From contig PEWQ01000186.1 of NCBI GenBank assembly GCA_002780065.1, positions 1-13,916 on the forward strand: a stretch of DNA of 13,916 bases, given 5' to 3'. Below are positions 1-7,262 of this stretch, piece after piece (positions within the stretch are counted from its first letter, which is position 1; every line of letters begins with the position of its first letter). The DNA is from Candidatus Hydrogenedentes bacterium CG07_land_8_20_14_0_80_42_17 (GTDB lineage: Bacteria > UBA8481). A program made the position numbers and the translations under genes. The notes under the pieces were generated by a model. The model worked only from the letters and a program-made list of their open reading frames with translations. It was not told the origin of the DNA and made no database searches.

Positions 1-90
1 CTCAATTCCCAATTCCCTGCAAGCTCGTATTATTCTTACAGCAATTTCTCCTCTGTTCGCAATCAATACTCTCTTGAAATTCGGCATCAT
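1..90 (-). CDS. accC: Biotin carboxylase, acetyl-CoA carboxylase subunit AccC (N-terminal fragment, cut by window edge)
   Basis: The reverse strand from position 90 encodes 30 residues that match the conserved AccC N-terminus: a short start, then [10 protein letters not shown] and [12 protein letters not shown]. AccC carries out the ATP- and bicarbonate-dependent carboxylation of biotin on the carrier protein, the first half-reaction of acetyl-CoA carboxylase. This stretch is the beginning of the biotin-carboxylase N-terminal fold; the rest lies beyond position 1. The start ATG (90-88) overlaps the TGA of the AccB-like gene (89-87) as ATGA, so the two are probably translationally coupled. A second ATG follows at 87-85. 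No strong ribosome binding site is visible, which fits coupling. Pyruvate and propionyl-CoA carboxylases share this N-terminus, but the AccB-like neighbour favours AccC. Confidence 0.9.
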
Positions 91-473
91 AAAATTGACT
101 CGGAAACAATTTTCATTAGGGCCTGCCCGTATTCAACACCCATTCCAGCCTCTACAAATAACTCTTCTATCGTTCCCGAAATCGGAGCGTTCACCGCATA
201 TTTTACGTCCATGACTCGGAGCTCGCCTAACGGTGCTCCTGCTTTAACTTTTTCACCGGCTGATGCTTTCGTCAAAAATATCCCCACTCTCGGAGAAGTC
301 ACAATCACCTTGCCTTCGTCGATAACTTCTCCCCGCTCAGATTGTGAAGGCTTCTTGTTCAGAGCACGTTCTATCGCAACAAAATTCTGCCCATCCATAA
401 GTTCAAGTTCTCCGAGCTCACGCGTCTCCATCAAATCAACCAGAGATTCCAATCGCTTTAAATCGAACTTCAT
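87..473 (-). CDS. accB: AccB-like biotin/lipoyl-attachment domain protein lacking the biotinylation lysine
   Basis: This 128-residue protein resembles the acetyl-CoA carboxylase biotin carrier. Residues 1-35 form the amphipathic N-terminal segment typical of AccB, followed by a short linker (about 38-55, much shorter than the Ala/Pro linker of E. coli) and a biotinyl/lipoyl barrel at about 56-122 (S-P-R-V-G-I-F near 60, I-S-G-T-I near 98, V-E-Y-G-Q near 113). At the attachment hairpin, where carriers have A-M-K-M, it has V-M-D-V (87-90). Counting back from S-G-T puts Asp89 at the lysine position, and the nearest Lys is residue 91. The start at 473 is chosen because it matches the AccB N-terminus, overlaps the upstream stop as ATGA (473-470), and has a GGGGAG site 10 bp upstream. 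A longer in-frame reading to 545 would run into the transporter gene. It sits directly before accC. The fold assignment is firm; biotinylation is doubtful. Confidence 0.85.
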
Positions 474-1630
474 TCTATTTTTTCTCCCCTTATCACATAC
501 TTCAAAATAAATGCCGATACCGGCACTCCTAGCAATAGCCCCCAAACTCCGAATAAATGCTCGCCAATAAGAAGAATAACCAATACCACAATTGGATGCA
601 TCTTCATGTGATGACCATAAATTAAAGGATTGAGAGCATAAGTTTCTACCGTGTGGACAATCAGAATTACAATGACAAGCAAAAATATTTTTATGATGCC
701 GCCGGCTTTAAATGCAAGTATAGCTGCAGGCAAACTTGAAAGTATCACTCCGAGTACAGGAATGTAAGAGCAAAAGAAAACGATTGTAGAAAGCAGAGCT
801 ATTGATTTCAAGCCGATGATCCAAAATCCAATCGCGGTCAAAACAGCATTTACAATTGCAATACCCGATTGAGCCTCAAAAGCGCGGCCTAGAACCGTTC
901 CAAAGGCTTTTAAGCTTGGAGCAATCTCCGCGTAAATTTTTTCAGTTTTTCCTTCCGAAAATGATTGTGCCGCCAAAATTAGGTTTGGAAGGTCCCAAAG
1001 AATAATGAAGGAAAGGATTAATGCCAGAGCAAAATGAAATCCTATAACTGCCAAATGATTAATAAAACTCTTCACGGCATTGACAATTACAGGGACAAAA
1101 TCTTCTACGGCATTGTCAATTTTTATTAGAAGTTCATTATAGAGATCTGAATTTTTGAACGAAGCAAAAGATTCAGGATCGAGAAGTGGCTGGAGAGTTT
1201 TATCGAGATAATGTCTCGTTTCACGCCTAACAATCGATTGCTCTGCTGTATCAGTTTCAACAGCAATCGAAGGCTCCATCTTCAAATGTCTATGATTCTG
1301 ACTTTCGGTAATTGCCTCTAATTCTGCTTCGCGCCGCACTTGCTCCGCCAGAAAATCTTTTGCCAGATTTCGAGTTTCGCTGAAAACTCTCGGAATAACT
1401 GCGCCTGAAAATCCTACTATCGCTAATAAAAATAAAACATATATTATTACAAGATTCAATCGGCGGTATTTTAGGCGATAAGCCATCAATTTCAGTAATG
1501 TATTTCCTATGTATGTAAGAATAAAAGTTAGAAAAATTATAGCGAAAAGTTTGCTAAGCAATATTAGAATGCCAATCAGGACTATCCAGATAGCAGTCTT
1601 CTGAATCTTTACTCCAATATCTTCCTTCAA
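470..1630 (-). CDS. AI-2E family (PerM/UPF0118) integral membrane protein
   Basis: This 386-residue polytopic membrane protein has hydrophobic segments at about 12-45, 58-80, 195-215, 260-305, 312-330 and 345-380. The C-terminal half holds typical family stretches: S-Y-I-P-V-L-G near 290, followed by a Leu/Pro/Ala-rich helix, and G-V-W-G-L-L-L-G-V-P near 362. The family is annotated as AI-2 exporter-like, but substrates differ and some members act as ion antiporters, so no substrate is assigned. A hydrophilic, charged stretch (about 82-190) between the third and fourth hydrophobic segments is rather long. The start is TTG (1630-1628), supported by AAGGAG 7 bp upstream. It lies 60 bp after mnmA on the same strand, and its TGA overlaps the AccB-like start by 4 bp. 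The coupling to accB/accC looks organisational rather than functional. Confidence 0.87.
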   Translation of the reverse strand: MKEDIGVKIQKTAIWIVLIGILILLSKLFAIIFLTFILTYIGNTLLKLMAYRLKYRRLNLVIIYVLFLLAIVGFSGAVIPRVFSETRNLAKDFLAEQVRREAELEAITESQNHRHLKMEPSIAVETDTAEQSIVRRETRHYLDKTLQPLLDPESFASFKNSDLYNELLIKIDNAVEDFVPVIVNAVKSFINHLAVIGFHFALALILSFIILWDLPNLILAAQSFSEGKTEKIYAEIAPSLKAFGTVLGRAFEAQSGIAIVNAVLTAIGFWIIGLKSIALLSTIVFFCSYIPVLGVILSSLPAAILAFKAGGIIKIFLLVIVILIVHTVETYALNPLIYGHHMKMHPIVVLVILLIGEHLFGVWGLLLGVPVSAFILKYVIRGEKIE

Positions 1631-5302: not shown

Positions 5303-5557
5303 TCATTTATATACTTCTTTACGATGAGCAACCCTCAATATCAGTATATTATTATCAGCCAATATAGAATAAATAACTCTATAATCTCCACTTCTGTATG
5401 AAAACAAACCTTTAAAATTGCCAACCAATTCTTTTCCTTTTTCAGGAAATAGAGAAAGTTCTTTTTCGATCTTATTTAAAAGCCTTTTGCATTGTTTCTT
5501 GTCAATTTTATTCAAATCTTTTGTAACTGACTTTTTATAATTAATTTTATAAGCCAA
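5303..5557 (-). CDS. RelE/ParE-superfamily toxin of a type II toxin-antitoxin module
   Basis: This small basic 84-residue protein has the RelE/ParE fold pattern: an N-terminal strand (Y-K-I-N-Y), a Lys-rich helical hairpin at 12-40 (D-L-N-K-I-D followed by L-L-N-K-I-E), then sheet strands around S-G-D-Y-R-V-I-Y (56-63) and a C-terminal R-V-A-H-R-K-E-V-Y (75-83). RelE-type toxins cut mRNA on the ribosome, while ParE-type ones poison gyrase. The H-R-K-E-V-Y ending is common in RelE-like proteins, but sequence alone does not settle the target. The start is TTG (5557), inside the last codons of the antitoxin gene: an 11-bp overlap in another frame, typical of co-translated pairs. It ends facing the DUF512 gene. 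Confidence 0.87.
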   Translation of the reverse strand: MAYKINYKKSVTKDLNKIDKKQCKRLLNKIEKELSLFPEKGKELVGNFKGLFSYRSGDYRVIYSILADNNILILRVAHRKEVYK

Positions 5558-5850: not shown

Positions 5851-6783
5851 TCAAAACGTGTTGTTGAAAAAACTATGCAATAACTTTTCGGCGGAGAGGG
5901 CAGGATTCTCGGAATTTTCTTCAACCGATTTCAAAGATTCTTGATATGCAGAAGAATTTTTTATGCGAGAATTTAATTCATAACGAACTGTTTCCTCAAA
6001 TTCAAAACGCCGCCGCCTTGAAAAATGATTTTTTCTGCTGTCTGACGACTCGATATAATTTTCGTGTTCATCTATCAATTTAGACAGATCGTAAATACCT
6101 TCTCCATTTCGAGCAGAAACTGAAATTATCTTTGGCGACCATCCACAGGTTTTATCGGGCAGAGTCAATTGCAGAGCAGAAGCTGTTCTGTCTGCGGCTC
6201 CTAGATCAGACTTATTTACGCAATGAATATCTGCAATCTCCATCATGCCTGCTTTCAATGCCTGAATGCTGTCTCCTGTATTCGGAGTTGAAACCACAAT
6301 TGTCGTATCTGCAATTTCAGAGATTGACACGTCGTTCTGTCCTGCTCCAATAGTCTCAATATGCACCTCATCAAAACCACATGCAGTAAGAAATCTCGAT
6401 ATTCTCAATACCGATGGTGAAAGCCCTCCTGCAACGTTTTTCGATGCAACGGAGCGAATAAACACGTTCTCATCGAGCGCTAATTCCTCCATTCGAATTC
6501 GATCGCCAAGTACCGCTCCGCCCGTCCTATAACTCGACGGATCGACTGCTACAATTCCAATTCTCATATCAGGAAATGATTCTCTTCTCTGCCGCACAAT
6601 TGCAGAAATCAAGCTGGATTTTCCCGCGCCAGGCGCGCCCGTCCATCCAATAATTCTCGGTTCAATCATCGGTGCTCGCGAAAGCAATTTTATTCCTTCA
6701 GGCGATAGTCTTTCAACTTCACTCACCGCACGCGCAAATTCAGAGCGTGAAGCGAATTTCAAAATATTAGAATGTTCATTCAT
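5851..6783 (-). CDS. meaB: MeaB/ArgK-type G-protein chaperone of a B12-dependent acyl-CoA mutase
   Basis: MeaB uses GTP to gate loading of adenosylcobalamin into, and protect, methylmalonyl-CoA-type mutases. This 310-residue protein has the P-loop G-A-P-G-A-G-K-S (49-56), D-P-S-S (81-84), G-D-R-I-R-M (93-98), the switch-type E-T-I-G-A-G-Q (143-149), I-Q-A-L-K-A-G (173-179) and the guanine-specificity N-K-S-D (190-193). Length is close to the usual 310-330. The family's usual E-T-V-G-V-G-Q and L-G-G-L appear as E-T-I-G-A-G-Q and A-G-G-L, small deviations in loops that contact the nucleotide or the mutase. It begins 12 bp after the B12-subunit stop, so the pair form an operon. The ATG start has AGAG upstream. 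Confidence 0.94.
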   Translation of the reverse strand: MNEHSNILKFASRSEFARAVSEVERLSPEGIKLLSRAPMIEPRIIGWTGAPGAGKSSLISAIVRQRRESFPDMRIGIVAVDPSSYRTGGAVLGDRIRMEELALDENVFIRSVASKNVAGGLSPSVLRISRFLTACGFDEVHIETIGAGQNDVSISEIADTTIVVSTPNTGDSIQALKAGMMEIADIHCVNKSDLGAADRTASALQLTLPDKTCGWSPKIISVSARNGEGIYDLSKLIDEHENYIESSDSRKNHFSRRRRFEFEETVRYELNSRIKNSSAYQESLKSVEENSENPALSAEKLLHSFFNNTF

Positions 6784-6795
6784 TAAAAACTCTAA

Positions 6796-7227
6796 TCAAG
6801 AATTTGAAGTTCCTTTTTCTTTAGAATGTTTTTCGGACGCAAATCTTCTGAACGCCTCGACAATCTCGGAAAGAGAAGAACCTGAGCTAAATACCTTCTT
6901 GATGCCCAGCTCTTCCAGTTTGGCGATGTCATCATCAGGAATGGTGCCGCCTCCGATCACTGGAATATCCGGCCTGCCTAATATTTTAATTTCGGATAGC
7001 ACTTTCGGAAAGAGTTCCATGTGAGCGCCTGAAAGACACGACAAACCTACAAGGTCGACATCTTCGTCCACTGCCACAGCCGCAATCTTTTCCGGAGTCT
7101 GACGAATGCCTGTGTAAACAACCTCCATGCCTGCGTCTCGCAATGCTCGTACGATAACGTGCGCGCCGCGATCATGGCCGTCAAGTCCAGGCTTAGCTAC
7201 AAGTATTTTGTAATGTCGTTCTTCCAT
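6796..7227 (-). CDS. Free-standing B12-binding (C-terminal) subunit of a methylmalonyl-CoA mutase-type enzyme
   Basis: The 143-residue protein is a complete cobalamin-binding Rossmann domain. [10 protein letters not shown] (12-21) contains the D-x-H-x-x-G signature whose His18 replaces dimethylbenzimidazole as lower cobalt ligand. G-L-S-C-L-S-G-A-H and V-I-G-G-G downstream bind the nucleotide tail. It matches the mutase C-terminal domain rather than methionine synthase (Y-T-G-I-R-Q-T-P-E). A charged Lys/Glu tail ends the protein. In split mutases this subunit pairs with a separate catalytic barrel, which is not in the window. The ATG at 7227 is preferred over an upstream in-frame TTG (7242) because the promoter's -10 box overlaps the codons between them. 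No ribosome binding site is present, which fits a leaderless message. meaB follows 12 bp downstream. Confidence 0.93.
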
Positions 7228-7233
7228 ATTTGA

Positions 7234-7262
7234 AATATACAATCAAATGCAGTTTTACTCAA
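7234..7262 (-). promoter_or_regulatory. Promoter predicted to give a leaderless mRNA for the B12 subunit/meaB operon
   Basis: On the reverse strand TTGAGT (7262-7257) and TATATT (7239-7234) are separated by exactly 17 bp. Six bases separate the -10 box from the A of the ATG at 7227, placing transcription start on or next to the start codon. No Shine-Dalgarno sequence is present. Confidence 0.6.

Follow-up and report, generated by a model that had tools for sequence, protein, structure and literature searches.

The DNA analysed here (the window, i.e., the whole stretch of 13,916 nucleotides from the Candidatus Hydrogenedentes bacterium CG07_land_8_20_14_0_80_42_17) encodes, just upstream of the biotin carboxylase gene accC, an AccB-like protein that lacks the lysine to which biotin is normally attached. 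This protein, referred to below as accB', is probably a non-biotinylated AccB paralogue made together with AccC, the carrier of acetyl-CoA carboxylase being the AccB domain of another protein, where it is fused to a degenerate carboxyltransferase. As far as sequences can tell, this suggests that the carrier's two jobs now fall to two different proteins, one keeping the complex together and the other carrying carbon dioxide.

The initial annotation had reported at positions 87-473 a biotin carrier with an aspartate in place of the biotinylated lysine. This observation was confirmed, except that the strand had to be corrected: accB' is a minus-strand ORF encoding 128 amino acids (MKFDLKRL...SESIL), and the plus-strand translation of the same interval is riddled with stops. 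The features of this region are the following:

470-1630, minus strand: AI-2E family permease gene, upstream of accB' (PF01594, 1.6e-44; same gene order in the second genome of the order)
87-473, minus strand: accB', Lys-less AccB-like protein, 128 aa (PF00364 and TIGR00531 scores; ortholog in the second genome)
366-473, minus strand: AccB-type N-terminal segment, helix and beta-hairpin, residues 1-36 (alignment with 4hr7_B; model)
255-272, minus strand: approximate site of the missing 8-residue AccB thumb (alignments)
207-209, minus strand: Asp89 codon (GAC), biotinyl-lysine position at the hairpin tip (alignment, model, codon reading)
201-203, minus strand: Lys91 codon, in the strand that follows the turn (model, codon reading)
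1-90, minus strand: 5' end of accC (ATGA overlap with accB'; the rest lies on contig C50)

The permease gene and accB' overlap as ATGA at 473-470. In the same way, the ATGA overlap with accC that had been noticed initially was found at 90-87. The first 72 bases of the window exactly match the terminal bases of contig C50, where the remainder of accC lies; because this overlap joins the two contigs, the linkage to accC is real.

Elsewhere in the window, an 84-aa ORF (5303-5557, minus strand) looks by eye like a RelE/ParE-type toxin. Furthermore, genes encoding a MeaB GTPase and a stand-alone methylmalonyl-CoA mutase B12-binding domain are adjacent at 5851-7242 (minus strand).

Residues 86-92 of accB' read RVMDVKY, codon 89 being GAC. 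AccB/BCCP proteins carry their biotinyl lysine within E-A-M-K-M at the tip of a hairpin, and the alignment with E. coli AccB (PDB 4hr7) pairs D89 of accB' with the AMKM lysine, K91 falling two positions later, as the initial annotation had proposed for both residues. The AlphaFold2 model, built from a three-sequence alignment (overall pLDDT 64.8, about 80 locally at the hairpin), displays strands at 81-87 and 90-95 separated by the turn M88-D89. Asp89 therefore also stands in this model where lipoyl domains (GcvH, E2) have their lipoyl lysine.

The order is represented by two genomes that belong to two families, this one (G000, 86.9% complete) and a second one (G001, 94% complete). The G001 ortholog of accB' shares 53% protein identity with it, is also devoid of thumb and harbours the same RVMDVKY. 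A sequencing or assembly error, already judged improbable from the codon, or a chance event can be rejected as the source of Asp89, because the second genome possesses the same Asp and the same permease-accB'-accC order. These sequences strongly support the view that accB' is not biotinylated; as it reads, it is a protein that cannot carry biotin at the usual place.

accB' reaches 42.4 bits against Biotin_lipoyl (PF00364), over the cut-off of 22.1, but only 38.7 bits against the AccB/BCCP equivalog TIGR00531, far under the cut-off of 115.2. A Foldseek search with the model, which is reasonably confident for the barrel only (block means 63-88 from residue 51 on), retrieves the BCCP structures 1bdo and 4hr7, pointing to a biotinyl-domain fold. 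Residues 3-38 align with residues 21-56 of the E. coli AccB chain 4hr7_B, and the N-terminal part of the model, of low confidence, contains a helix (5-17) and two strands (22-27 and 30-35). accB' thus resembles AccB/BCCP proteins (E. coli AccB, TIGR00531) by its N-terminal helix and hairpin, its biotinyl-domain fold, its linkage to accC and its C-terminal VEYGQ motif, present in many bacterial AccBs, while it differs from them by the loss of the biotinyl lysine, by its low equivalog score and by the absence of the thumb, seen as an 8-residue gap relative to E. coli AccB (4hr7) and in the carrier census described below. The statement that the rest of the fold and the AccB-type N-terminal segment are intact is hence true of the barrel and of this segment but not of the thumb.

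Other components needed for an acetyl-CoA carboxylase, i.e., accA, accC and accD, as well as the biotin ligase, appear intact in sequence. G000 encodes one Biotin_carb_C protein, the biotin carboxylase; the AccC ORF on C50 scores 649.8 against TIGR00514 (cut-off 626.5) and retains motifs common to the AccCs of other genomes. The Carboxyl_trans proteins of G000 are AccA and AccD only, both over their family cut-offs. A biotin-ligase-like protein retains the GRGR and KWPND motifs, and a second, weak match to the ligase family is found on C166.

The search for a second, canonical accB, which had been advised with the initial annotation, gave no free one; a biotinylatable AccB was found fused to a carboxyltransferase. 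The only PF00364 matches in G000 are accB', two HlyD-type adaptors and the carrier domain at the C-terminus of the PycB-like fusion protein. In G001, besides accB' and the ortholog of the fusion, the profile matches a complete pyruvate carboxylase, a lipoyl E2 and GcvH. Among the matches listed, PF00364, A1 and A2 searches of G000 (86.9% complete) gave no canonical free accB, so that an overlooked gene was rejected for this genome, and the PF00364 search of G001 (94% complete) gave none either. A free accB could possibly have been missed in one or the other draft genome; that it was missed in both is unlikely. The two fusions are:

Contig C49 of G000, L054:3039-4829, minus strand: PycB/OadA-like carboxyltransferase fused to an AccB-type carrier, 596 aa, two metal-ligand residues lost
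Contig C57 of G001, L058:3500-5305, minus strand: PycB/OadA-like carboxyltransferase fused to an AccB-type carrier, 601 aa, two metal-ligand residues lost

They share 46% identity, and their genes adjoin trpS and scpA in both genomes and are unlinked to acc genes. The ScpA-like protein of G000 (L054:1229-2053, minus strand) has a tandem GIKLPD repeat at its N-terminus, of which the G001 counterpart has a shorter version. In both genomes, the carrier domain of the fusion includes a thumb and the motif EAMKLFHE; against TIGR00531, this C-terminal part scores 84.4 (G000) and 77.1 (G001), below the cut-off of 115.2.

The phylogeny of the carriers also relates the fused domains to AccBs. In a first tree using all columns, both fusions join the free second AccBs of G005 and of a WS1 genome (100/93), PycB carriers clustering on their own (100/100). 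When the motif columns are left out, a quick tree groups the fusions with the second AccBs of G005, WS1 and G030 (SH-aLRT 88) and keeps PycB carriers apart at 96. These trees rely on 78-83 columns and include many unresolved forks, several Lys-less AccBs being long branches.

By analogy, accB' is best read as a bacterial counterpart of BADC, a subunit that bears no biotin and assembles or regulates AccC. BADC is known as a protein of plant plastids. Arabidopsis BADC1-3 are BCCP homologues that lack the AMKL biotinylation motif and coexist with a canonical BCCP; within heteromeric acetyl-CoA carboxylase, they reportedly work alongside biotin carboxylase and BCCP, as a glue or as an inhibitor (PMC11926652). 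Likewise, accB' is by sequence a BCCP homologue without biotinylation motif, from a genome that also encodes a separate canonical carrier, the AccB-type domain of the C49/C57 fusion. It differs from BADC in that it is bacterial, overlaps accC and has no thumb, and in that the canonical carrier forms one polypeptide with a degenerate carboxyltransferase. accB' fits an assembly role because it retains the N-terminal segment and the fold, is encoded with AccC and has no usual biotin site. Like the plant BADC proteins, accB' would bind AccC, with a structural or regulatory role, and could affect its activity. The AccB domain of the fusion would be biotinylated by the biotin ligase of the genome, charged by AccC and discharged by AccA/AccD, and would thereby serve as the carrier of acetyl-CoA carboxylase, with the presumably dead carboxyltransferase half acting as a scaffold. 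That the fused carrier serves AccA/AccD is proposed for G000 because no other intact carboxyltransferase was recognised in this genome; the proposal is weaker for G001, which also has a pyruvate carboxylase. Among the possibilities raised initially, the best supported is that of a former biotin carrier, now without its cofactor, which would regulate or scaffold AccC. In its broader form, namely that bacteria possess their own BADC-like Lys-less AccB that assembles or gates biotin carboxylase, and that the carrier of this order has moved to a dead carboxyltransferase scaffold, the proposal has about an even chance of being right.

accB' could instead be an inhibitor that slows carboxylation by taking up the places where carriers dock on AccC, a mode of action first put forward for plant BADC. 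The retention of the barrel domain and of the N-terminal segment and the coupling of the gene to accC would suit such a role, and both inhibitor and glue models exist for BADC. However, a plant NMR study favours the glue over the inhibitor (PMC11926652), and the overlap with accC is probably easier to reconcile with a stoichiometric subunit than with an adjustable inhibitor. Inhibition thus seems rather unlikely as the role of accB'.

The fusion is itself another unusual feature and calls for caution in annotation, since family models call the whole protein pyruvate carboxylase subunit B. Over its whole length, it has the carboxyltransferase-PYC_OADA-carrier layout of PycB/OadA proteins. However, where homologues show KDMAG, the two fusions show VNDVAG and LIDITG, and where homologues show HxH, they show HTR and HIR. 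The lysine is thus replaced by Asn or Ile, and the second histidine by Arg. Pairwise comparison of the G000 fusion with 5ks8 and 2nx9 reveals differences at the same two places, namely the KDMA lysine and the second His of HxH. We take the altered Lys and His to be metal ligands, as in the pyruvate carboxylase (PC) and OAD structures, where the metal would be held by an Asp, a carbamylated Lys and His-x-His; the full set of four ligands of PycB/OadA is thus found in neither genome. The comparison covered 30 loci from a search of 241 genomes, of which 27 were readable (the two fusions and 25 others) and three (L088, L094 and L098) were left out. KDMAG and HxH are kept in all 25 readable homologues outside the order. 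Judged by its sequence, the carboxyltransferase of the fusion is apparently dead: the loss of metal ligands argues against activity, without disproving it.

It could be supposed that the fusion nevertheless acts on pyruvate or oxaloacetate as a working carboxyltransferase whose metal ligands are unusual, and that a free canonical accB was missed in both drafts. The similarity to PycB over the full length (NF006761, 514 bits), the retention of R84 and D14 in both fusions and the incompleteness of the assemblies are in line with this idea. Against it stand the disappearance of the same two ligands from both genomes when every readable outside homologue keeps them, the complete pyruvate carboxylase already present in G001 and the failure to find a free accB in either genome. 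Furthermore, the carrier is of the AccB type, with a thumb, and groups with AccBs, whereas the PycB carriers included in the trees are thumb-less. This combination of an active fusion and a missed gene is accordingly quite unlikely.

Intact PycB-type carboxyltransferases fused to a thumb-bearing AccB-type carrier were observed in G087 (L085), G227 (L086) and G146 (L090). In G087 and G227, accC additionally adjoins a free canonical accB, and the fusion gene of G087 is near accA. No free AccB was recognised in G146, where the other PF00364 matches are a lipoyl protein and one short match.

Lys-less AccB-like proteins are not restricted to this order. They were found upstream of accC in G018, G030, G005, a WS1 bacterium, G166, G171 and G235; in the WS1 genome and in G005, a small pilin-like gene (L036:3444-3809 and L007:1758-2120, respectively) separates the Lys-less gene from accC. 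G178 (81% complete) encodes a Lys-less AccB with Asp in a locus where no accC was detected; a PF00364 match lies within a 1188-aa frame of pyruvate carboxylase size in this genome. A separate canonical thumb-bearing accB is present elsewhere in the genomes of G005, G018, G030, WS1, G166 and G171. In G235 (L217, L211), the AccB adjoining accC is of the Gly type, and no canonical carrier was recognised other than a thumb-less 69-aa protein beside a PycB gene. Among 89 carriers, a set enriched for Lys-less ones by its selection with a profile of Lys-less proteins, the biotinyl-lysine column contains K in 79, G in five, D in three, R in one and E in one. A single origin of all Lys-less AccBs was considered and not retained: six out of ten group in the first tree (93/88), and the grouping is not resolved without the motif columns.

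That Lys-less AccBs persist ahead of accC in several lineages outside the order also makes it improbable that accB' is merely the decaying, functionless relic of a former accB. The loss of both Lys and thumb and the presence of a canonical carrier elsewhere in the genome could be seen as signs of decay; however, 53% identity is retained across two families, with an upstream ATGA overlap and an unbroken frame in both genomes. As for the modification of the shifted lysine envisaged initially, biotinylation at Lys91 is highly improbable although K91 is kept in both genomes, since biotin ligases need a lysine at the turn, while K91 lies in a strand of the model, outside any EAMKM context, and is lacking in the Lys-less AccBs of other lineages.

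The reading of accB' as a BADC-like subunit can also be compared with the Chloroflexus aurantiacus BC1, a BC-BCCP fusion in which the BCCP beta-hairpin holds biotin carboxylase dimers together (PMC11077971). There also, a heteromeric acetyl-CoA carboxylase has its carrier fused to another domain, and the assembly job of the hairpin is of the sort proposed for accB'; however, the BC1 carrier is fused to an active biotin carboxylase and is itself biotinylated. In the open-licence literature (titles and beginnings of abstracts), neither a report of a bacterial Lys-less AccB beside accC nor a description of an acetyl-CoA carboxylase with a split carrier was found. If the proposal is true, a bacterial counterpart of BADC would be encoded with accC in several lineages, implying that evolution can separate the assembly role of BCCP from its carrier role. 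These bacteria would then offer simple systems to settle whether BADC-like subunits help or inhibit acetyl-CoA carboxylase.
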